DNA from: Sporomusa sp.
GTDB taxonomy: Bacteria > Bacillota_C > Negativicutes > Sporomusales > Sporomusaceae
NCBI GenBank assembly: GCA_029256645.1
Contig: JAQSXM010000054.1
Location: forward strand, 1-12,554
Reading direction: 5' to 3'
Length of the DNA stretch: 12,554 bases
Each line of letters starts with the position of its first letter. The stretch's first letter is position 1. The notes under the pieces are model-generated. The model was given only the letters and a program-made list of their open reading frames with translations, did no database searches and was not told where the DNA came from. Positions 2,546-12,554 of the stretch are shown in pieces. The position numbers were made by a program, and so were the translations under genes.

Positions 2546-3643
2546 TTACCCCTCCTTTACCGCCTTACGGAAGCATTTATTGAAAATGTTGTTTAGGATT
2601 TCAGGTTTGCGTAACACGATGTCTGCTGAAACAATGAACAAGATAACCAGCCCCTGGATGATTAAAACGATTGCCGAGGGGATGGCCACAGCCCGTTGCA
2701 TCATATCGGCCCCCAGAATCAAAGCGCCGAACAGCACCGAGGCGGGAATAACCCCAAGCGGATGCAGCCGGCCAAAGAGTGCCGCAACAATACCGCTAAA
2801 ACCATAACCGGCTGAAATATCCTCAAGGGCCCGGTGATGCACACCTACGACCTCCACCGCTCCGGCCAGTCCGGCAAAACCGCCTCCCAGCAGCATAGCC
2901 AGCACCAGATACCGCTCCACCTTAATCCCGGCATACCGCGCTGCGTCAGGACCTGACCCCACTGCCCGCATCCGGTACCCCACCGTTGTACGCCACAAAA
3001 AAATATATACTAAGACAGCAAGCACCACTGCCAGCAAGAAGCCGCTGTGCAGGCGGGTTCCGGGAATGATCCGCTCCAGCCAGAGGGCATGAGGTAAAAG
3101 CGCTGTTTGCGGAACCCCTGTCCCTAAAGCTACTTCCTGCGGATCAATTAAAAAGATCCGGATTAAGAATAAGTACAATTGTGCCGCAATCTGGTTCAAC
3201 ATTACCGTACTTAGTATCTCGTTGACGGCCAGCCGGGCTTTGAGCCAACCGGCCAACCCGCCCCACATGCCACCAGCCGCCGCTCCACCAAGCAGCACAA
3301 GCGGCAATAGCAGTACAGTAGGCATAGCAGGGAAGGCAAGCGCAATGGCGGCAGCCGTGACAGCCCCCATCAGCATTTGTCCCTCACCGCCGATATTTAA
3401 GATACCGGTACGGAATGAAACAATAATCCCCAGTCCAACCAGCAAGAGCGGTGTACACCGCACCATTGTTTCGGAAAATCCAAAACTGCTGGAAAAAGGA
3501 CCGCTAATCATTACGCCATAAGCGGTTATCGGGTTGGAGTTAGCCAGCAGGATAAATATTGCGCCTACAGCTAAAGCCCCGACAATAGCACTAAATAACA
3601 CCAGACCTTGAATCATCCATGATTTTTGAACGAAATTCTTCAT
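2546..3643 (-). CDS. ABC transporter permease, NupP/COG4603-like
   Basis: This is the first membrane subunit and first gene of the importer operon, 365 residues. The protein begins MKNFVQKSW, followed by a membrane segment at about residues 12-33, and has the COG4603 signature FRTGILNIGGEGQMLMGA (77-94). The reading frame stays open to 3760, but the ATG at 3643 is chosen because AAGGAG lies 7 nt upstream and the extra 39 residues would be read from the promoter and terminator region. It pairs with the next permease (4-nt gap). Expression should depend on the promoter at 3749-3777 and on read-through of the leader terminator at 3679-3717, which lies between promoter and gene. Confidence 0.92.
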   Translation of the reverse strand: MKNFVQKSWMIQGLVLFSAIVGALAVGAIFILLANSNPITAYGVMISGPFSSSFGFSETMVRCTPLLLVGLGIIVSFRTGILNIGGEGQMLMGAVTAAAIALAFPAMPTVLLLPLVLLGGAAAGGMWGGLAGWLKARLAVNEILSTVMLNQIAAQLYLFLIRIFLIDPQEVALGTGVPQTALLPHALWLERIIPGTRLHSGFLLAVVLAVLVYIFLWRTTVGYRMRAVGSGPDAARYAGIKVERYLVLAMLLGGGFAGLAGAVEVVGVHHRALEDISAGYGFSGIVAALFGRLHPLGVIPASVLFGALILGADMMQRAVAIPSAIVLIIQGLVILFIVSADIVLRKPEILNNIFNKCFRKAVKEG

Positions 3644-3678
3644 GTAATTTCTCCTTTTTGAGGGCGGTTTGAGCAAAT

Positions 3679-3717
3679 AAAAAAACACTCTGCGCCTCAA
3701 TAGAGACTGCAGAGCGT
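3679..3717 (-). terminator. Leader terminator (attenuator) before the ABC transporter operon
   Basis: On the minus strand a 9-bp stem (ACGCTCTGC with GCAGAGTGT, one G-U pair) closes a loop that contains a smaller CTC/GAG hairpin, and is followed by seven T residues (3685-3679). This is a standard intrinsic terminator. It sits about 25 nt downstream of the likely start site of the 3749-3777 promoter and 35 nt before the permease start codon, so it would stop transcripts from that promoter as well as read-through from the regulator gene. A longer pairing of TTGAGCA (3727-3721) with TGCTCAA (3675-3669) can enclose the same hairpin. Its position between promoter and gene points to conditional termination. 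Confidence 0.82.
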
Positions 3718-3725
3718 CTGTGCTC
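3712..3725 (-). promoter_or_regulatory. Possible antiterminator hairpin, copy A (hexaloop)
   Basis: GAGC-ACAGAC-GCTC can form a 4-bp stem with a six-base loop. Its 3' arm is part of the 5' arm of the terminator at 3679-3717, so the two structures exclude each other. A hairpin of the same layout stands at the same place before the regulator gene (4509-4522). The loop has A at position 1 and G at position 4, as in targets of ANTAR-domain antiterminators. The stem is short, and a second hexaloop hairpin expected for ANTAR targets is not convincing, so the function is inferred. Confidence 0.45.
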
Positions 3726-3748
3726 AACTTTGTATTTTGCTTGTCATG

Positions 3749-3777
3749 ATTGTATCTCATTATGAGACTGTTGTCTA
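3749..3777 (-). promoter_or_regulatory. Sigma-A promoter of the ABC transporter operon
   Basis: The -35 box is TAGACA (3777-3772) and the -10 box is TACAAT (3754-3749), separated by exactly 17 bp. The likely transcription start is near 3742. The promoter begins 17 nt after the stop codon of the regulator gene. It closely resembles the promoter at 4545-4573 in box sequences, spacer length and spacer content. Confidence 0.75.
3755..3767. promoter_or_regulatory. Palindromic operator inside the promoter spacer
   Basis: TCTCATAATGAGA (minus-strand reading) is a perfect 6-1-6 inverted repeat that fills the space between the -35 and -10 boxes and touches the -10 box. A related sequence, GTATCAATATGAGATAT, lies in the same place in the regulator's own promoter (about 4549-4564). 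A protein bound here would compete with or remodel RNA polymerase. The adjacent Fis-type regulator is the natural candidate, which would make it autoregulatory, but no direct evidence links them. Confidence 0.6.
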
Positions 3778-3793
3778 GAGGGTAGCCCTCAAT

Positions 3794-4405
3794 TTAAGAA
3801 ATTTTATATTCCTTCAGTTTGCGGTATAGTGTTGCCCGGCTGATACCCAGCATTTCAGCAGCCTTTTCTTTGCTGCGGGCCTGACCATTGACTTTAGCCA
3901 GTGCTTTCATAATAGCCTCTTTTTCCAGGTTATTCAAACTGAGCTCAGACTGGGTAAAGCCATTGGCTGCTTGCCTGCCGGCAAGCTCGCCGGCGATAAG
4001 TTCCGCCATTTTCTCAATAAAGTGCAACATCCAGTCCCGGTTCTTCATCAGGCGCTCAGTATGCACCGGATCAAAGCTAACAAGCCCAATTACCCCCACT
4101 GGTTCGCCGGCTAACATAATCGGCGCCGCCATTTCTGCATCCTCTACACACTGCCCCCGCTTGGGGCAGGGGTCACATAACGGATGTGTTCCGGCGTTTT
4201 CAATGACAACCGTATGGCGGCTCTTCAGCACATGCTGATAGACAAAACCTTCCACCATAACCTGGCCCAGCTGTCCCTGACAAGCCCCAGTACTGGCAAT
4301 ACGTATCATATCGGTGTCGACAACCTCGACATCAATTTTTAATACTTCCTTTAGCGCTTCAGCTGTTCTTTGAACAATCTGTTCGATGCTGCGCAAAGCC
4401 GACAT
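3794..4405 (-). CDS. Fis-type HTH transcriptional regulator with Cys-containing sensory domain, no AAA+ domain
   Basis: This is a one-component regulator of 203 residues. The N-terminal part (about 1-140) resembles the GAF/PAS-like input domain of clostridial sigma-54 activators: IEQIVQRTAEAL, VVDTDMIRIASTG, then a Cys cluster (Cys77, Cys80, Cys86, in CDPCPKRGQC), and GEPVGVIGLVSFDP. The C-terminus (about 158-203) is a Fis-type helix-turn-helix ending in AAEMLGISRATLYRKLKEY. The roughly 240-residue AAA+ ATPase domain normally lying between them is absent, with no GAFTGA motif, so it should act at sigma-A promoters. The ATG at 4405 is preferred because GGGTGA precedes it and homologues begin near this point; a TTG at 4456 with AAAGGA upstream would add 17 residues. 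It lies directly before the transporter operon, whose promoter shares an operator-like sequence with its own. Confidence 0.85.
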   Translation of the reverse strand: MSALRSIEQIVQRTAEALKEVLKIDVEVVDTDMIRIASTGACQGQLGQVMVEGFVYQHVLKSRHTVVIENAGTHPLCDPCPKRGQCVEDAEMAAPIMLAGEPVGVIGLVSFDPVHTERLMKNRDWMLHFIEKMAELIAGELAGRQAANGFTQSELSLNNLEKEAIMKALAKVNGQARSKEKAAEMLGISRATLYRKLKEYKIS

Positions 4406-4480
4406 TCTCTCACCCTTAAGTTGCCGTTGATCCGCAGTCATCCCCGGATCTGGCAATACTTTCCTTTGTCGAATCTAATG

Positions 4481-4512
4481 AAAAAGACTCTGCACAATAC
4501 ATTGCACAGAGC
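4481..4512 (-). terminator. Leader terminator (attenuator) before the regulator gene
   Basis: On the minus strand GCTCTGTGCAA pairs with TTGTGCAGAGT around a TGTA loop (an 11-bp stem with G-U pairs), followed by TCTTTTT. It lies about 26 nt after the likely start site of the promoter at 4545-4573 and 75 nt before the chosen ATG of the regulator (25 nt before the alternative TTG). It would also catch read-through from the deaminase gene. Position and 5' arm sequence match the terminator at 3679-3717, again suggesting regulated read-through. Confidence 0.8.
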
Positions 4513-4522
4513 TTCATTGCTC
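4509..4522 (-). promoter_or_regulatory. Possible antiterminator hairpin, copy B (hexaloop)
   Basis: GAGC-AATGAA-GCTC forms a 4-bp stem with a six-base loop whose 3' arm overlaps the 5' arm of the terminator at 4481-4512. Stem sequence, loop size and the A1/G4 loop bases are the same as in the hairpin at 3712-3725, while the remaining loop bases differ. That is the pattern expected of a conserved RNA element. The structure is short and unproven. Confidence 0.45.
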
Positions 4523-4544
4523 GCTGAGTGGTTAATCTGTCAAA

Positions 4545-4573
4545 ATTATATCTCATATTGATACAATTGTCCA
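4545..4573 (-). promoter_or_regulatory. Sigma-A promoter of the regulator gene
   Basis: The -35 box is TGGACA (4573-4568) and the -10 box is a consensus TATAAT (4550-4545), 17 bp apart. The likely start site is near 4538. The spacer contains GTATCAATATGAGA, which is related to the palindrome in the transporter promoter but is an imperfect inverted repeat. The promoter starts 16 nt downstream of the deaminase stop codon. Confidence 0.78.
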
Positions 4574-5139: not shown

Positions 5140-5191
5140 GAAAATTACATTTTTGTGACTACAGCCCACAATTAATCCCTAACCGTCCTAC

Positions 5192-5232
5192 AATAAAGGC
5201 ACCATTGCCAGGGTGGCAATAGCGCCTTTATT
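5192..5232. terminator. Long hairpin, probable (bidirectional) terminator of the catabolic operon
   Basis: Two 19-nt arms, AATAAAGGCACCATTGCCA and TGGCAATAGCGCCTTTATT (plus strand), pair around a GGG loop with only a few G-U or mismatched positions. The A-rich outer end supplies a T-rich flank on either strand (TTTATT), as in bidirectional terminators, although the T-run is not pure. It lies about 140 nt after the carbonic anhydrase stop and before the deaminase promoter, so it would separate the two units. Confidence 0.65.
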
Positions 5233-5283
5233 ATTACGCAGACTATAATTTACAACCATACCCTGTAAGTGGGCAAAGCAACA

Positions 5284-5983: not shown

Positions 5984-7093
5984 TTAATAGGCTTGCATCA
6001 GCTGTCGCGGGTAATTGGTGAGCAATTCAGAACCATTGTTTGCTACATAAATACAATCCGTAACTCTGGGTCCGCCAATATCCTGTCTGTAGATGGTAGG
6101 CAACAGCAAATCCACCACCATACCGGCTTCAATCCGTTCATTCCGGCCTTTGCCGATGATGGGATAAAACTCAGATTGCCGGATACCCACGCCATAGCCA
6201 ATGACATCAAGAAAGCTTTTGCCGTAGCCGCACGCCTCAACAATCTCCCTGGCGGCAGCATCCACCTCAGCAACGGCTATTCCCGGCTTAAGAGCTGCAA
6301 CGGCAGCTGTTTGTGCTTTCAGCAACAGCTCATACACCGCTCTTTTGTCGTCGCCAATGTCACCAACAGCCACTGTGCGGCACAGTTTGGCACAATACCC
6401 CTCATACGTAGCTCCCAAATGGATAACGACAATCTCACCTGTTTCAATTTTCTTACTGCTGGCACAGGGATGAGTCAGCAGGGACCGGCTGCCGGAAACA
6501 ACCTGAGGACGAAAGGGAGATCCGCCTGAGCCCGCCTTTAACATGGCATACTCCGCCTCGGCCAGGACATCCAGTTCACGCACGCCTGACACTACAGCCT
6601 GCACAGCGGCCGCCATGCCTTGTACAGCAATCCTCCCTGCCTGGCGCATATACTCTATCTCACCGGCGTCTTTCACCGCGCGCAGGCGGTAAAAGAGGTC
6701 CCCGGCGTTTTTGAACCCATTCTCCGGAAAATGGTGACGCAACGTATCATATACGGCAAACCCGACAAAATAACGCTCAAACCCGATACTGGGCTCGGTA
6801 TAACCATAGGCCTTGATCTGCTCGACGGTTTTAGATACCAGACTTTCTCCGGGAAACTGATAACCGTACGTTTTTATGCCAGTCTCATTCCCTACATAAC
6901 CAGCATCCAACCATAACGTGACGGCACATGGTTCGCCCTGGCGGGGAATGATCACAGCCAGACATTCAATCTGAGTCAAACCGGTAAAGTAGATCAGGTT
7001 TTCCCGGTTGGTTATCAGCAGGACATCCAGATTGATCTCAGCCATCATTTGCTGGGCTCTTTGCAGCCGGTCACGGTAAGGGGCCTTGATCAT
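5984..7093 (-). CDS. M24 'pita-bread' family protein lacking metal ligands (creatinase/prolidase-like)
   Basis: This 369-residue protein has the two-domain layout of prolidase, Xaa-Pro aminopeptidase and creatinase: a creatinase N-terminal domain (about 8-138, with LDVLLITNRENLIYFTGL) and a pita-bread catalytic domain (about 148-365). The five metal ligands of the peptidases are all replaced when aligned by motif: Asp to His225 (VIHLGATYEGY), Asp to Lys236 (CAKLCRT), His to Tyr300 (IGYGVGI), Glu to Leu331 (LLLPTIY) and Glu to Thr345 (GGPRVTDC). It is therefore unlikely to be a metallopeptidase. Creatinase is a precedent for a metal-free C-N hydrolase on this fold, so a related amide or amidine hydrolase is possible. 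The start ATG overlaps the aldolase stop by 4 nt (ATGA), placing it firmly in the operon. Confidence 0.85.
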   Translation of the reverse strand: MIKAPYRDRLQRAQQMMAEINLDVLLITNRENLIYFTGLTQIECLAVIIPRQGEPCAVTLWLDAGYVGNETGIKTYGYQFPGESLVSKTVEQIKAYGYTEPSIGFERYFVGFAVYDTLRHHFPENGFKNAGDLFYRLRAVKDAGEIEYMRQAGRIAVQGMAAAVQAVVSGVRELDVLAEAEYAMLKAGSGGSPFRPQVVSGSRSLLTHPCASSKKIETGEIVVIHLGATYEGYCAKLCRTVAVGDIGDDKRAVYELLLKAQTAAVAALKPGIAVAEVDAAAREIVEACGYGKSFLDVIGYGVGIRQSEFYPIIGKGRNERIEAGMVVDLLLPTIYRQDIGGPRVTDCIYVANNGSELLTNYPRQLMQAY

Positions 7094-8106
7094 ACGGCCC
7101 CCTGCCGGCGTTGTTTGCTCAGTTCAATGGCAACATCAATAATCAGATCCTCCTGACCGCCTACGGTTTTGCGCCGGCCCAGTTCCATGAGAATATCCCG
7201 GGAATCAACCCCAAATTTTTCAGCGGCGCGGCGGGCATGGAGCAGGAAGCTGCCATAGGCACCGGCATACCCGATGACCAGCGCATCATTGCTGATTACC
7301 TGGGGGCGATGCAGCAGCGGATCAATGACCTCCTGACCGACATCCATCAACTTATAGAGGTTAATGCCGGTTTCATACCCCATTTTAGCAAGAACGGCTG
7401 CCAATACCTCCAGCTGGGTGTTGCCGGCACCGGCACCAAGACCGCGGACTGAGCCGTCGATCAGGGTGGCCCCGGCTTCGATAGCCGCTAAACTATTGCC
7501 AACCGCAAGACCTAAATTGTTATGGCCATGGAATCCAACCGGCACCTTGACAGCCGCCTTCACGGCCGCGATTTTCTCTTTCACTTCCCCCGGCACCATG
7601 GCACCACCGGAGTCGGTCACATAGACAACATCCGAACCATAGCTTTCCATCAGTTTGGCCTGCTCAACTACCTTTTCCACAGATGCCATATGGCTCATCA
7701 TCAGAAAGCCAATAGCCTCCAGCCCATGTTTCTTGGCAAAATTTATGTGCTGTTCGGCCACATCGGCCTCTGTAACATGGGTAGCAACCCGGACTGTATG
7801 AGCGTTGTATTCCATGGCAACCTTCAAATCCTCAATCGTCCCAATGCCGGGAATTAGCAGCACATCCAGCTTGCAATTTTTCAGCGCTTGGGAAACTGCA
7901 GCAAAATATTCTCTGTCGGTAGATTTAGCGAAACCGTATTGCAGGGATGATCCGCCAATCCCATCCCCATGGCCAATTTCAACAGTAGTTACACCGGCCT
8001 CATCCAAACGCCGGGCAATTCCCGCCATTTGTTCGGCCGACAACGAATGGCTGATGGCATGCATACCGTCGCGCAGTGTAACGTCAATGAGACGAATGTG
8101 CTTCAT
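7090..8106 (-). CDS. mhpE: 4-hydroxy-2-oxovalerate aldolase
   Basis: This class II aldolase splits 4-hydroxy-2-oxopentanoate into pyruvate and acetaldehyde. The 338-residue TIM-barrel protein opens with [11 protein letters not shown] (residues 10-20): Arg12 and Asp13 at the active site, Asp13 a metal ligand and His20 the likely catalytic base by analogy with Dmp[11 protein letters not shown] (192-201) supplies metal ligands His193 and His195. A C-terminal helical region (from about 265) matches the part that contacts the dehydrogenase and channels acetaldehyde in DmpG-DmpF. Its ATG overlaps the stop of the dehydrogenase gene by 4 nt, and its own stop overlaps the next start by 4 nt, so the genes are translationally coupled. 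Confidence 0.96.
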
Positions 8107-8975
8107 GAATTAACCCCCTTCAGTTTGTGCTGGGCATAACGTTCAGCGACAGCAATAGCTGCCGAGGTAATAATATCAAGGTTGCCGGAATATTTGGGCA
8201 GATAGTCGCCGGCCCCTTCCACTTCCACCATGGCCACTACCCGTTCCCCGTCCGCATAAGGCTCGACTTTTAAATGATAACCGGAAACATATTTTTTTAC
8301 TTCCGCCACCATAGCGTTAATCGATTCTTTGATTTTATCAATATTACGAGTGTCACATTTGCAGTAAATTGTGTTGCGCATCATAACCGGCGGTTCCGCC
8401 GGATTCAGGATGATAATGGCTTTGCCGTCTTTGGCCCCACCCACTTTTATCAGGGCGCTCCTGGTGGTTTCGGTGAATTCATCAATATTTTGCCTGGTAC
8501 CGGGTCCGGCACTTTTACTGGAGATTGTGGCCACGATCTCCGCATATTCAACAGGTGCCACCCGGTTGATTGCGGCCACAATCGGGACAGTTGCCTGCCC
8601 GCCGCAGGTCACCATATTGACATTGTCTACACCAGATCCCACGTTGAGCGCTACTGCCGGTACACAGTATGGCCCTACCGCGGCCGGTGTTAAATCAACG
8701 GCAAAAATCCCTGCTGCTTTTAAGAGTGGTGCATGCATTTGGTGAGCCCGGGCACCGGTGGCATCAAATACTATATCAATATTCGCTTCCTGCAAAATTC
8801 CCTGAATGCCCTCAAGTGTGGTTTTAATTCCTCTTTCTTCTGCCAGCTTTAATCCGTAAGAGTCGGGGACAATCCCGGCCATCATTACCAGTTCCAAATG
8901 CTCGCTGCGGGCTATTTTCAGCATTAGATCTATTCCTATATTACCTGGCCCAACTATAGCCGTCCTTAACTTCAC
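8103..8975 (-). CDS. mhpF: Acetaldehyde dehydrogenase (acylating)
   Basis: This enzyme oxidises the acetaldehyde released by the aldolase to acetyl-CoA using NAD+ and CoA. The 290-residue protein has a Rossmann motif VGPGNIG (8-14), the catalytic cysteine Cys124 in TCGGQATVP, and the [17 protein letters not shown] region (about 155-171) typical of MhpF/DmpF. Length is slightly below the usual 300-316. It starts with GTG at 8975, supported by TAGGAGGGG a few bases upstream that overlaps the stop of the hydratase gene. It forms a channelling complex with MhpE, and the gene order hydratase-dehydrogenase-aldolase is the classical one. Confidence 0.96.
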
Positions 8976-8986
8976 AAAATCCCCTC

Positions 8987-9769
8987 CTATTTTTTGAAAC
9001 GTGCAGATACACTGCCAATACGGTCAAAATAAAATGTTACATTATCGCCGTCAGCTACCGGGCAGGCGGCGGTAAAGGAACCGGACATAATAACCTCGCC
9101 TTTTTTCAGGCTTATGTTATATTGGGCCAGCTTATTGGCCAGCCAGGCTACAGCGTTGGCCGGGTGTCCGAGAACGGCAGCGCCGGCCGCGGTAGCAACT
9201 ACTTCACCGTTTTTCTCAAGAACCAGCCCCATATATCTCATGTCAATATCCGCAAGGGGAGTCAGCTTCCCGCTCAGGATAACCCGCCCGATGGAAGCTC
9301 CATCGGCAATTGTGTCCTGAATCTTGATCTTCCAGTCTTTTACCCTGCTGTCAATAATTTCGATGGCTGGCATAATCCCGGCAGTAGCCCGTAAAACATC
9401 GGCAATGGTAATACCCGGTCCCTGAAGGTCTTCCTTCAAGACAAAAGCAATTTCCGGTTCGACTTTCGGGGCGATAAGCTCGCTTAAAACAACGGCATCA
9501 CCTTCATAGCCCATCATATAATCGGCAATATAGCCATAATCAGGCTCAAACACGCCAAGCGCATTCTGCATGGCCTTACTCGTCAAACCAATCTTTTTAC
9601 CTACAATACGATGCCCATCTGCCAAGCGCAGTTTCATGCCTTCAAGCTGAATGGCATAGGCTTCGTCGTTGGTAAGCGGATACTGATCGGTAAGAGTTGC
9701 AATGGCTGTACCGGTCTTCTCCGCCTCATAAAGTGCGGCAGCCAGTTGATTAATGATGTTTTTTTCCAT
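8987..9769 (-). CDS. mhpD: 2-oxopent-4-enoate (2-hydroxypentadienoate) hydratase family protein
   Basis: This protein probably hydrates 2-hydroxypenta-2,4-dienoate to 4-hydroxy-2-oxopentanoate, the substrate of the aldolase encoded two genes downstream. It has 260 residues, the normal MhpD size, and belongs to the fumarylacetoacetase-like fold. Visible features are [13 protein letters not shown] (56-68), the metal site KVEPEIAF (Glu104, Glu106) and AIEIID (Glu137). 4-oxalocrotonate decarboxylase (DmpH) is a close relative, and the sequence alone does not exclude that activity. The frame extends to 9817, but the ATG at 9769 is chosen because GGAGGGG lies about 5 nt upstream and the protein then has the family's normal N-terminus. 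The start lies 20 nt inside the end of the molybdopterin-domain gene. Confidence 0.92.
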
Positions 9770-10658
9770 GGTGACCCCTCCATTTTTGTTGTAGTTTCTC
9801 CCGTAGAACCCGGGCAATTTCAGTCGCCAGACCAGCCTGATCCACCAAACCGGCGCGACAATATTGTTTTAGGACCTCAGTGGCAGCTACCACCTCATCA
9901 TGCGGCCCAGGCAGGTTAACGATAGTAGTAAGCCCCACCTTGCCGATGCCAATACGTACCCCATCCTTGACATGTCTACCAGTTCCCTGTTCAAATTGGA
10001 CAATATAGGGAGTCAGTGCGGCCGGATCAACAGCTAATAACGCCTCAACGCTAAAATCCTTGTCCTCTGCCCCTACACCGCCGGTAGTAATAATCAGACC
10101 AAACCCACGATCGACCGCTTCTATTATTTTCCGGCTGATCGCCCCTTTGCTGTCGGCAATCACACCGCCGAACTCTGTTTTATAACCGTTTTCCTGCATA
10201 GCTTTACAGAGATACGGGGAATTCGTGTCTTCAATCATGGACTGCTCAAGTTCAAAACCTGTAGAGTAAACCAGTGCCCGGGCCAGAACATTTTTTTCGA
10301 TTTCAGTCAGCATAGCCTGCGTTCTGGACATAATCTGCCCGGACTCAATTACATCGCAATTAATCAGTCCCATAATACCCTGGGAATCAATAAAAGTCTC
10401 AGGCCTAATCGTAAGTCCGGTGATTTGCCCCAGCTTTTCCAGCAGCAATTTTTCCTTACCGATAATCTTGTTGATGGAAACCGTCTTTTCCAGGATATCC
10501 AGACAAAAATGATCCTGCCTTACATCAATGACCAATACTTTTTCCGGTGGTAATTCCAGCACTTGGGCTACGCTTGTGGCAATATCACTTAAGTTTACAT
10601 CTTTCATAAGGACGTTCTGAACCCGCAGTTCCGTTTTCTCAAGCAGGTTTAATTTCAT
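9750..10658 (-). CDS. Molybdopterin-binding (MoCF/CinA-type) domain protein with unassigned N-terminal domain
   Basis: The C-terminal half (about residues 126-275) of this 302-residue protein is a MoaB/MogA/CinA-type molybdopterin-binding domain: STGFELEQSMIEDTNSPYL, then VIADSKGAI, the glycine-rich TTGGVGAEDKD (191-201) and NLPGPHDEV (248-256), which resembles the CinA version. The first 125 residues contain no motif I recognise. Such domains bind molybdopterin or, in CinA relatives, act on nucleotides, so the role could be cofactor handling for a molybdenum enzyme or hydrolysis of a nucleotide-like compound. The ATG at 10658 is served by AGGGAG, which overlaps the stop of the previous gene (gap 5 nt). 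The C-terminus is basic and His-rich. No molybdenum hydroxylase gene lies in the window. Confidence 0.82.
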   Translation of the reverse strand: MKLNLLEKTELRVQNVLMKDVNLSDIATSVAQVLELPPEKVLVIDVRQDHFCLDILEKTVSINKIIGKEKLLLEKLGQITGLTIRPETFIDSQGIMGLINCDVIESGQIMSRTQAMLTEIEKNVLARALVYSTGFELEQSMIEDTNSPYLCKAMQENGYKTEFGGVIADSKGAISRKIIEAVDRGFGLIITTGGVGAEDKDFSVEALLAVDPAALTPYIVQFEQGTGRHVKDGVRIGIGKVGLTTIVNLPGPHDEVVAATEVLKQYCRAGLVDQAGLATEIARVLREKLQQKWRGHHGKKHH

Positions 10659-10663
10659 GACAG

Positions 10664-11461
10664 TTAGCTCCCTACTACATCAAGTTTCATATCTAATAAC
10701 GGTGCATCGATAATTTGCATACCAATGTCCAGAATATCAATATCCTCGTCCTGTAAGTTAGCGATATCCTGCAGGGAAATTCCTTTGGCAAAAGCCAGTT
10801 GAACCTTGGACCGCCAGCCGTTTTTTTTCAGAGCTGCGCTTACCCCGCGCAAGTCTTCCACATTGCCGGTATCGACCATGATAATACCGGCCCCGCACTC
10901 GGCCGCCAACACCGCCTCGGCCGCAATATCGCCGGTTTCCCCTTTTAACTGCAGCACCTTTAACTCGGGCCTTATGCTTACGGCTGCCAGTGTTTTCTTA
11001 ATGCCGCCCAGCATGCGGACAAAGTTTTTATCCAGATACAAAAACGGGACATCGACAATCCGGAAATGCGCGCCGCCATGATTGACTGCCTCCCTGACAA
11101 GCTGCTTGATCTCTGGCGGCATTTTTTTCCAGGCACCGCTCACAATGCGCAGGGAACCAGCGCTGACAACCGCCTTACGGGCGGCAGTGGCAATCCCGGA
11201 TGGCTTACTCAACATACCGATAGCAAACTCTTCGGCAACGGCAATCTCTTTAGGTGTGCCGGTCAGGGTAAGAATGACCTCACCTGCGGTTACTGTATCG
11301 TTGTCTTTTTTGTGTAGCTGATACCTTAGCTGCTCCTCCTCCAGTACTGTTTGAAGCCGCTTAATTCCCGACACTACCCCGTCCTGTTCCGCAGTCAGGC
11401 GGGCCGTATATGCAGTGTCCCGTACAGATGCAAAAATTATGTCACGTATATCGTTTGCCAC
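10664..11461 (-). CDS. Divergent quinolinate phosphoribosyltransferase-like (ModD-like) protein
   Basis: This 265-residue protein follows the nicotinate-nucleotide pyrophosphorylase architecture: an N-terminal barrel-sandwich part with DGVVSGI and AGEVILTLTG (about 25-68), SKPSGIATAARK (85-96) at the junction, then an alpha/beta barrel. Catalytic motifs of true QPRTases are altered: TRKTTPG corresponds to SGAWKKMPPE (108-117), LDN to VDT (196-198) and SGGI to AKGI (225-228). It is therefore unlikely to make NAD precursors and may act on another phosphoribosyl or aromatic acid substrate. ModD of molybdenum gene clusters is a known non-NAD relative, and the next gene encodes a molybdopterin-binding domain. 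The GTG at 11461 is chosen over upstream TTG/ATG codons because GGGAGG precedes it by 7 nt. Confidence 0.78.
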   Translation of the reverse strand: MANDIRDIIFASVRDTAYTARLTAEQDGVVSGIKRLQTVLEEEQLRYQLHKKDNDTVTAGEVILTLTGTPKEIAVAEEFAIGMLSKPSGIATAARKAVVSAGSLRIVSGAWKKMPPEIKQLVREAVNHGGAHFRIVDVPFLYLDKNFVRMLGGIKKTLAAVSIRPELKVLQLKGETGDIAAEAVLAAECGAGIIMVDTGNVEDLRGVSAALKKNGWRSKVQLAFAKGISLQDIANLQDEDIDILDIGMQIIDAPLLDMKLDVVGS

Positions 11462-11484
11462 TGACATCCCTCCCATCAATTGAA

Positions 11485-12554
11485 TTAGGCATTTTGCCCA
11501 TTTTCACGCTCAAGCTGCAACTCTTGCTCTTTCTCCTGGCGCTGAGCCACAAAATCCTCACGTTCCAATACAATTGAGAACAGGAGACCGGCGATAAGTG
11601 CCCAGAATGGCGAACCGATGTTAAATATGCTGATATTAGAAACAGCGACAAGGAAGGACACGAAAGAACCGTATTTGAATCTGCCGGAGAAGGCACCGGC
11701 GAAGGCGCTGATTAATACGCCAAACATAGCCAGGCCTGCAAGCATCGCCGTCAGTTCTTTCGGCACAAGCCCGGCAACAGCAATAGCAACGCCGGCAGAA
11801 AGAGAGAACAGAATCCAAAAAACGCCTTCCGAAATAGCTGCAATAAAGCGGAGCGACTTATTCTCTCCGGCCGCAGGGCTGGAACAAATGGCAGTACTGG
11901 GACCGGCAGTAACGCAGGGATGGGCACCAAAAATGGCATTAAGAACAGTGCCAAGGCCAGGCGCAATGAATATTGAATTGATCGGCAGATTCTTATAACC
12001 TTCTGCCATCAAAACACCCACCGCCTGAATGTTTTGCACGCCAAGCACCAGAATCGTCAGCGGGATTGTCAGTTCGAAAAATGCTCTGGCCGTAAATTCC
12101 GGATACATAAACAGCACAGGGGTGGCTAATTGAAACTGGAGCACATCCCATTTGGCCATACCCAGCGTTGTTGCCAGAAATCCGCCAAGAATAATTGAGC
12201 CCAATATCGGGGGGAATTTCTTAGAGAACCCTTTTAGCGCCGTGAGGGCAAAAAACAGCAGCACCGGCGGACCGATAAGCACCGGCTGATCCTTGATTGC
12301 AGTGACCAGATTAACGCCAAAACTCATCATTACGCCGGCAATCATGCCCAGCATTACCGGCAGCGGCAGATAGTTAATGGCCTTTTTTACCAGCCCCGAA
12401 ACACTGATTATAATGACAACCAATGCTACCATATAGTAAGCGCCTACCGCTTCCGCGTGAGGCAGGTGAGTTAATGACTTGCCGATGATAATCGCGCCGG
12501 GAATACTATAAGCGGCTACAAGCGGCAAACGATACTTCAAAGCGTAATAAATGG
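11485..12554 (-). CDS. BenE-family (benzoate/H+ symporter-like) transporter, N-terminus beyond window
   Basis: This is an integral membrane carrier; 356 residues are visible and the frame is open to the window edge, where it reads IYYALKYRLPLVAAYSIPGA. About ten or eleven hydrophobic segments are seen. The RLPLVAAYSIPG and AHPCVTAGPSTAICSSPAAG stretches match conserved regions of BenE transporters, proton symporters of benzoate and probably other organic acids in the nucleobase-transporter superfamily. Roughly 40 residues should be missing, given the family's usual length near 400. The C-terminal tail is cytoplasmic and rich in Glu, Gln and Arg. The stop lies 23 nt before the next gene, so it probably imports the substrate of this operon. 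Confidence 0.88.
   Translation of the reverse strand, partial: IYYALKYRLPLVAAYSIPGAIIIGKSLTHLPHAEAVGAYYMVALVVIIISVSGLVKKAINYLPLPVMLGMIAGVMMSFGVNLVTAIKDQPVLIGPPVLLFFALTALKGFSKKFPPILGSIILGGFLATTLGMAKWDVLQFQLATPVLFMYPEFTARAFFELTIPLTILVLGVQNIQAVGVLMAEGYKNLPINSIFIAPGLGTVLNAIFGAHPCVTAGPSTAICSSPAAGENKSLRFIAAISEGVFWILFSLSAGVAIAVAGLVPKELTAMLAGLAMFGVLISAFAGAFSGRFKYGSFVSFLVAVSNISIFNIGSPFWALIAGLLFSIVLEREDFVAQRQEKEQELQLERENGQNA

Follow-up and report, generated by a model that had tools for sequence, protein, structure and literature searches.

Paired leaders before a regulator gene and an importer operon of Sporomusa sp. as likely single-hairpin, ANTAR-type nitrogen attenuators

What controls a regulator gene and the importer operon beside it, when a transcription terminator stands between promoter and gene in both? 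We addressed this question for the 12,554-nucleotide (nt) Sporomusa sp. contig JAQSXM010000054.1 (GCA_029256645.1), the whole of which is here called the window and to which all coordinates refer. Its minus strand carries two promoter-leader-terminator units, leader A (3777-3679) before a BmpA/PnrA-type importer operon and leader B (4573-4481) before a gene for a regulator with GAF and Fis-type helix-turn-helix (HTH_8) domains. A preliminary description had regarded the two as a duplicated control element matching no recognised riboswitch class. We conclude that both are likely ANTAR-type nitrogen attenuators in a single-hairpin variant, on which an ANTAR protein would act.

Both leaders start from a promoter with a 17-nt spacer. 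The -35 and -10 boxes are TAGACA (3772-3777) and TACAAT (3749-3754) in leader A, and TGGACA (4568-4573) and TATAAT (4545-4550) in leader B, with scores of 10/12 (3777-3749) and 11/12 (4573-4545), respectively. Among 28 promoter-like sites in the window, only leader B reached 11/12, and five sites, leader A included, reached 10/12. The scan and the sequence itself thus bear out the two box pairs and the stretches TGAGATA, AAT and TGACA, common to both promoters or leaders, that had been seen on inspection. Folding and a covariance model (R3, below) place a small hairpin, GAGC-ACAGAC-GCTC in leader A (3712-3725) and GAGC-AATGAA-GCTC in leader B (4509-4522), 23 and 22 nt from the -10 box. Both hairpins are of the P2 type, with A at position 1 and G at position 4 of the hexaloop (A1/G4), and would serve as antiterminators. 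An intrinsic terminator overlaps the 3' arm of the hairpin in leader A (3683-3719, by folding; T-run at 3679-3685) and in leader B (4483-4515, by terminator scan and folding; T-run at 4481-4485). All these features are on the minus strand. Because the GCTC arm is both the 3' arm of the hairpin and the 5' arm of the terminator, the two structures are mutually exclusive alternative folds; the hairpins and T-run terminators described earlier therefore stand, but not as consecutive structures. A transcript that ends directly after the hairpin folds the hairpin (-4.0 and -4.3 kcal/mol), whereas the full-length leader forms the terminator instead (-23.3 kcal/mol in A, -14.3 in B). The hairpin by itself folds with -4.0 kcal/mol in each leader. 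An attenuator is built in this way when its small hairpin has to be held for read-through. Single-sequence statistics were mixed. The fold of leader A was better than 200 of 200 shuffles (z -4.3), whereas that of leader B, taken alone, was unremarkable (z -1.35, 20 of 200 shuffles as good); a simple terminator scan of the window lists the B terminator and misses that of A, and terminator-like sites in the window are not in excess (16 against 14.3 expected). It is the comparative evidence that settles the reality of the leaders.

The genome sets were the order and the class of Sporomusa acidovorans (L018) and, for the control, the class of Brevibacillus (L015); the two classes are taken to be Negativicutes and Bacilli. 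Model R1, built from four sequences with only the terminator pairs modelled, returned 30 loci from 28 genomes of the order, and the hexaloop hairpin was found in 17 of them. Model R2 (22 sequences), run with strict filters on 160 Negativicutes, matched at least 64 genomes at E ≤ 0.1 and at least 29 at E ≤ 0.001; these counts are of the matches listed and are lower bounds. We aligned 108 matches from 78 sources (the loci returned by R2 and 40 fetched stretches, taken from the better matches). A hexaloop on a stem of at least 3 bp, closed by a C-G pair, was present in 105, and the three matches without it were left out. Position 1 of the loop was A in 97 of the 105, position 2 was A in 102 and position 4 was G in 104, with A1 and G4 together in 96. 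Since the models were trained on such loops, absolute conservation is inflated, and the informative part is the free variation at positions 3, 5 and 6 beside the near-fixed G4. In 20 of the 78 sources two elements follow each other on one strand within 150 nt. Model R3, made from 55 elements with the window and its near relative L142 excluded, finds in the window the sites of leaders A and B and nothing else up to E = 5, with 40.5 bits (E 4e-7) and 32.9 bits (E 1.6e-5); since its members were gathered with models that included the window, these are held-out scores that are not fully independent. Among eight further genomes, R2 matched four (three Desulfosporosinus and Acididesulfobacillus), all with ANTAR genes, and the A1/G4 hairpin was seen in eight of ten loci inspected. 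We conclude that leaders A and B are not an isolated duplication but two copies of a widespread element that stands before many unrelated genes. The preliminary description was right that the attenuators are maintained and, with terminators between promoter and gene, need read-through. A local twin they are not: the importers of genome G009 and of Desulfosporosinus have one element copy on the importer strand, and local duplication was dropped as an explanation.

The covariance search across relatives that had been proposed earlier found the hairpin pairings kept, with covariation. In 26 matches that were aligned without fitting to the hairpin, 93.8% of the cells were paired (83.5% in shuffles), 11 cells were double-changed (2.9 in shuffles) and the covariation score was 0.361 (0.177 in shuffles). 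In the R3 alignment (A7), which is fitted to the hairpin and to the upper terminator pairs, the lower terminator pairs being outside the model, 97.3% of the hairpin cells were paired, with changes on both sides in three of four pairs; the corresponding values for the competing terminator stem were 98.7% and six of seven. Both stems exceeded slid and shuffled controls in paired cells, double-changed cells and covariation score.

The genes downstream suggest what the element controls. In 82 locus/strand cases, orthologues included, sequence motifs assigned the downstream gene as nifH (18), amtB (12), livJ-type (9), AIG2/GGCT-like (4), a corrinoid protein gene (3), glnA (2), glnQ-type (2) or other (32). 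One nifH was confirmed as Fer4_NifH by Pfam, which also recognised, in a test of 40 more proteins, ammonium transporters, glutamine synthetase, aromatic amino acid lyase, LamB/YcsF, a nitrogenase-component-1-type oxidoreductase, a Na/alanine symporter and sigma-54 activators, among others. The element also stands before nucleobase genes. We consider it likely, from this gene context, that the two leaders belong to a nitrogen-linked attenuator regulon, with nitrogen supply as the presumptive signal. ANTAR control of nitrogen genes is itself already published, and the parts of Ramesh 2012 (PMC3369931) that deal with targets place them mostly before nitrogen genes; what is added here is the breadth within Negativicutes, an importer and a regulator as targets, the probable operator described below and the single-hairpin architecture.

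The lead to ANTAR proteins came from the loops ACAGAC and AATGAA, both of which have A1 and G4. An ANTAR target RNA, as set out in the relevant parts of two papers (PMC3369931, PMC8164766), consists of two hexaloop hairpins with A1 and G4, here P1 and P2, the second of which overlaps the terminator in attenuating cases. Both window leaders have a P2 hexaloop with A1/G4 and an intrinsic terminator that overlaps the P2 helix. Of the genomes searched, 26 of 28 in the order and 138 of 160 in the class have ANTAR genes. In G009, the core ANTAR gene codes for a REC-ANTAR response regulator beside a HisKA_2 kinase, and its closest PDB relatives are 1s8n (a putative antiterminator) and 6wsh; by eye, GroES/GroEL-like genes come after the ANTAR gene in this locus and in four more. 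The element in G018 has an ANTAR gene on one side and a permease gene on the other. The Bacilli set (161 genomes) was intended as a negative control for R2. At E ≤ 0.1 it yielded 24 matches, spread over 22 genomes where chance would give about 16, and at E ≤ 0.001 it yielded two. The latter two, however, are eutH leaders (one by Pfam, one by eye) that start 22 nt past the end of an ANTAR-domain match. Two more matches lie directly before eutA (one by Pfam, both by an EutA search), about 1.4-1.5 kb from ANTAR domains. Ten Bacilli loci were inspected: the four eut leaders have the hairpin, five have no A1/G4 hairpin at the site, and one has a 3-bp hairpin and no recognised gene. Training on nitrogen leaders thus gives a model that also picks up leaders from a known ANTAR regulon, which is stronger evidence than co-occurrence. 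To judge from these sequence comparisons, leaders A and B very probably function as ANTAR attenuators, and an ANTAR protein is probably their trans-acting factor.

In a separate observation, leaders in L116 and L118 (reverse, ~1820-1960) are flanked by a permease-like gene and by a second ANTAR gene, which is EutV-like. Their hairpins, GG(G)C-AATAGC-GCC(C), have A and not G at loop position 4, are repeated about 70-95 nt apart and receive no R3 score; perhaps that EutV-like protein has a different loop specificity.

Several points weigh against assigning the leaders to an ANTAR nitrogen regulon. The analysis covered the window and the genomes of relatives, and the ANTAR genes seen are those of the relatives. 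All 29 genomes with R2 matches at E ≤ 0.001, among the matches listed, are within the 138 ANTAR genomes and none within the 22 without (p ~0.009), but relatedness and genome size confound this co-occurrence, and 11 of the 29 had contributed sequences to the training. At E ≤ 0.1, R2 also matched four of the 22 genomes with no ANTAR match (G048, G011, G010, G150), and G048, which may be an incomplete genome, has a tandem element before amtB. Hexaloop hairpins are lacking in 13 of the 30 R1 loci. Some measures of covariation were ordinary: in the 26-match alignment of the hairpin, pairs with double changes numbered 3 (1.7 in shuffles) and further pair types 4 (4.7 in shuffles), and in the R3 alignment the counts of double-changed pairs, and for the hairpin those of further pair types, were at shuffle level. 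The 32 of 82 downstream cases outside the scored categories include genes (AMP-binding enzyme, MFS, DcuC) with no obvious nitrogen role. In the order, the element is absent from 22 of 23 importer-permease loci (≤48% identical), G009 being the sole carrier, and one relative of the regulator gene (L003) has no element.

Also on this side is the lack of P1. Sought as an A1/G4 hexaloop on at least 3 bp with a linker of 2-20 nt, P1 occurs in 6 of 101 elements (6.6 in shuffles), four of the 105 having been left out for a repeated or short upstream part; the stricter AC..GU form ACANNGNNGT occurs in 1 of 101 (0.5 in shuffles). Neither the 3-bp nor the 4-bp form, nor AC..GU closing, nor any hexaloop was enriched. 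Three of 26 rows had been left out before the first P1 count, one of which (L081 2221, loop C1) later scored 25.8 bits by R3. The passages of PMC3369931 on mutants report that P1 is needed for full induction, its deletion or a changed linker lowering EutV-dependent induction, and those of PMC8934654 on transcription in vitro that a longer linker abolishes antitermination. On binding the sources differ in the parts concerned: in the 2012 work two stem-loops together bound better than one (PMC3369931), whereas in the 2022 work EutV bound a single P1 or P2 with an affinity not significantly different from that for the pair (PMC8934654). The positive control of the P1 search was limited: of four eut leaders found by R2, P1 was nearby in the two of eutA and not in the two of eutH. 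A scan of 30 eutA loci gave eight hairpin-plus-terminator sites, none with P1, but it is a weak control because it missed two known eutA leaders in its own loci L258 and L259, which R3 finds. It may be that P1 is less universal than held, or present in some other form.

The latter possibility amounts to the same ANTAR mechanism with a cryptic, non-canonical P1 upstream, of weak stem or different loop, so that the target would be a dual hairpin with a degenerate first half. In its favour, the regulator leader of G001 (L081) has AC-AAGGCT-GT 17 nt before P2, leader B could form a weak 3-bp hairpin TTG-ACAGAT-TAA, and a canonical P1 is likewise absent nearby in some eut leaders. A CAAGT stretch about 15 nt before the hairpin is also enriched ([ACT]CAAGT in 12 of 101 elements against 1.7 in shuffles, e.g., L184, L188, L208 and L213), in part owing to nifH orthologues, with 8 of 76 against 1.6 when nifH elements are left out. 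A CAAGT-like stretch seen by eye in the Bacilli eutH leaders was not used, as it could be the end of the preceding gene. Leader A, however, holds no P1 candidate, and the P1 counts do not rise above shuffles. Moreover, 26 of 101 elements (6.3 expected) have a -10 box at a distance of 20-24 nt upstream of the hairpin, which would leave only about 15 nt of RNA ahead of the hairpin in those elements. We regard a cryptic P1 as rather improbable. It is possible, although we hesitate to call it probable, that ANTAR proteins run a whole nitrogen regulon in Negativicutes and Desulfosporosinus through leaders with one hexaloop hairpin a few nucleotides from the start of the RNA, in many cases with two complete attenuators one behind the other. 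If so, the ANTAR dimer must work on one hairpin, on one in the adjacent attenuator, or through contact with polymerase or the 5' end, and the rule that requires two hairpins at a set distance would be contradicted.

A missing P1, and the few matches in ANTAR-less genomes, of which that in G048 is the convincing one, could also mean that an RNA-binding antiterminator other than ANTAR recognises the hexaloop. We think this unlikely, given that the same model retrieves eutA and eutH leaders beside ANTAR genes, that A1/G4 is the published ANTAR signature and that ANTAR genes are so common in the class. The terminator between promoter and gene would suit a riboswitch or a ribosome-controlled leader peptide. 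An Rfam covariance search of the window and 20 loci gave nothing above chance (best sub-threshold score, uup with 20.3 bits against a cut-off of 36.8), in keeping with the earlier remark that no riboswitch class fits; yet the riboswitch frame of that remark fails as well, there being no aptamer-sized domain and the conserved part being a 14-nt, ANTAR P2-type hexaloop hairpin before many unrelated genes. A leader peptide, considered because several loops show an ATG by eye, was rejected since the hairpin of leader A has none. Control by a riboswitch or leader peptide thus appears very improbable. Equally hard to credit are plain terminators with chance hairpins and constitutive expression by leakage; the ordinary fold of leader B and the lack of excess terminator-like sites would agree with it, but the promoter stands at a preferred distance upstream, both alternative folds covary and held-out R3 finds just the sites of leaders A and B. 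Regulation through an ANTAR protein and a single hairpin remains our preferred reading.

The similarity of the two promoter spacers has a different explanation. The palindrome TCTCATAATGAGA lies without mismatch in the spacer of promoter A (3755-3767, minus strand), and a motif search finds a version with two mismatches in promoter B (4551-4563, minus strand). With up to two mismatches allowed, there are 13 occurrences in six regulator-bearing sources (the window, L001-L004 and L086) against about 2.5 in shuffles, and in 10 of these an R3 element follows within 90 nt. The palindrome is missing in L233, L234 and L119, the last being from G009, where the regulator has no match at E ≤ 1e-40; in the whole set, it stands before only 4 of 105 elements. 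Because it is tied to regulator-bearing sources and stands before so few elements, we place it outside the attenuator, and it is probably the operator of the adjacent GAF-HTH_8 regulator, as its recurrence beside relatives of that gene suggests. A common operator would therefore explain the likeness of the spacers, and the shared TGAGATA is better explained in this way than as part of a duplicated control element. Among regulator relatives, an element lies before the regulator gene in L001 and before an upstream amidohydrolase gene in L002. Another follows the regulator gene within about 120 nt in L001, L002, L086 and, weakly, L004 (16 bits), where it precedes genes for, in this order, a PALP enzyme, a xanthine/uracil permease, a dihydroorotate-dehydrogenase-like protein and another PALP enzyme. 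The order in the window is likewise regulator, element and next operon. In L004, from Pectinatus cerevisiiphilus, palindrome-plus-element pairs occur at 4446-4549, 10674-10737 and 18492-18585, within 20 kb around the regulator gene, before a sodium:solute symporter gene, a PALP enzyme gene and a third gene; possibly, they form a small two-layer regulon.

We propose that control would proceed as follows. The RNA would start about 7 nt after the -10 box, and the first structure it could form is the small hairpin, in which a C-G pair closes the hexaloop A-A/C-N-G-R-N. Unaided, the stronger terminator would capture the 3' arm of the hairpin, and transcription would stop before the importer (leader A) or the regulator (leader B). 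Under nitrogen shortage, a histidine kinase would phosphorylate a response regulator with REC and ANTAR domains, which would grip the hexaloop and keep the hairpin closed, so that the terminator is blocked and polymerase reads through. As a second layer, on DNA, the GAF-HTH_8 regulator would probably bind the palindrome in both promoters and tune itself and the importer.

The importer operon, all on the minus strand, begins after leader A with a BPD_transp_2 permease gene (2546-3643, Pfam), followed by a second permease gene (1606-2541), a gene for a Bmp-family substrate-binding protein (559-1569, Pfam) and an ATPase gene (3-536, assigned by eye from the translation) that is incomplete at the window edge. 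The longest open reading frame of the first permease (start 3760) would cross leader A (window 3643-3760), and its true start is probably 3643. The regulator gene (3794-4405, minus strand, Pfam) encodes 203 residues from the start at 4405 that most relatives share. The closest relative among the 28 genomes of the order is G009, with a permease 83% identical and the same leader (loop AATGGC); the Desulfosporosinus permease is 71% identical over 319 residues, and has the same leader (loop AATGAA) with a different terminator sequence. On the other side of the G009 importer neighbourhood (L142 617-665, minus strand), a dihydroorotate/dihydropyrimidine dehydrogenase-like gene has its own element on the opposite strand, and a similar gene in L086 comes after the regulator, behind the element. 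Elsewhere in the window, a long inverted repeat (AATAAAGGC...GCCTTTATT) at 5190-5234, between deaminase and carbonic anhydrase genes, holds GGC-AATGGT-GCC on one strand, to which R3 gives no score. The stretch 5984-12554 carries catechol meta-cleavage lower-pathway genes (oxopentenoate hydratase-like, acetaldehyde dehydrogenase, 4-hydroxy-2-oxovalerate aldolase) and MoeA-like, QPRTase-like, M24 peptidase and BenE genes; the contig looks like that of an anaerobe.

On the reading preferred here, two unexplained leaders become members of a broad nitrogen-control network of anaerobes that would span nitrogen fixation, ammonium uptake, glutamine synthesis and the scavenging of nucleobases and amino acids, and the window importer would answer to two layers, the promoter regulator and the leader antiterminator. 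The elements also form a large natural data set at odds with the two-hairpin rule for ANTAR targets, which makes the rule directly testable. In the literature searched, with subscription papers and supplementary tables outside it, nothing we found describes a single-hairpin ANTAR target or the present regulon in Negativicutes, and we make no claim of priority; PMC9413887, in the part that bears on the subject, deals with histidine genes.

Comparison with known systems places the element closest to the ANTAR target RNAs (EutV and the eut leaders of Enterococcus, NasR/nasF, AmiR/amiE), with which it shares the small A1/G4 hexaloop hairpin whose 3' arm is part of an intrinsic terminator, and one model retrieves both kinds. 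Unlike them, window-type elements have no detectable P1, and about 15 nt separate their hairpin from the predicted 5' end of the RNA. The ANTAR nitrogen regulons of Desulfotomaculum, Pelobacter and other organisms, as treated in the sections of PMC3369931 on those organisms, are alike in that attenuators precede genes for ammonium transporters, nitrogenase and glutamine/glutamate, with several in one organism and in one transcriptional unit; the model given there is a dual hairpin, unlike the window-type elements. The main text of that paper, tables aside, names none of the four Negativicutes genera searched for, and its section 10 mentions neither nucleoside importers nor a GAF-HTH_8 regulator. 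The ribonucleic antiterminator (RAT) of the BglG/LicT type is similar in being a single protein-stabilised hairpin that overlaps a terminator, but it measures 29-30 nt, whereas the window-type hairpin has 14 nt and a loop of the ANTAR type.

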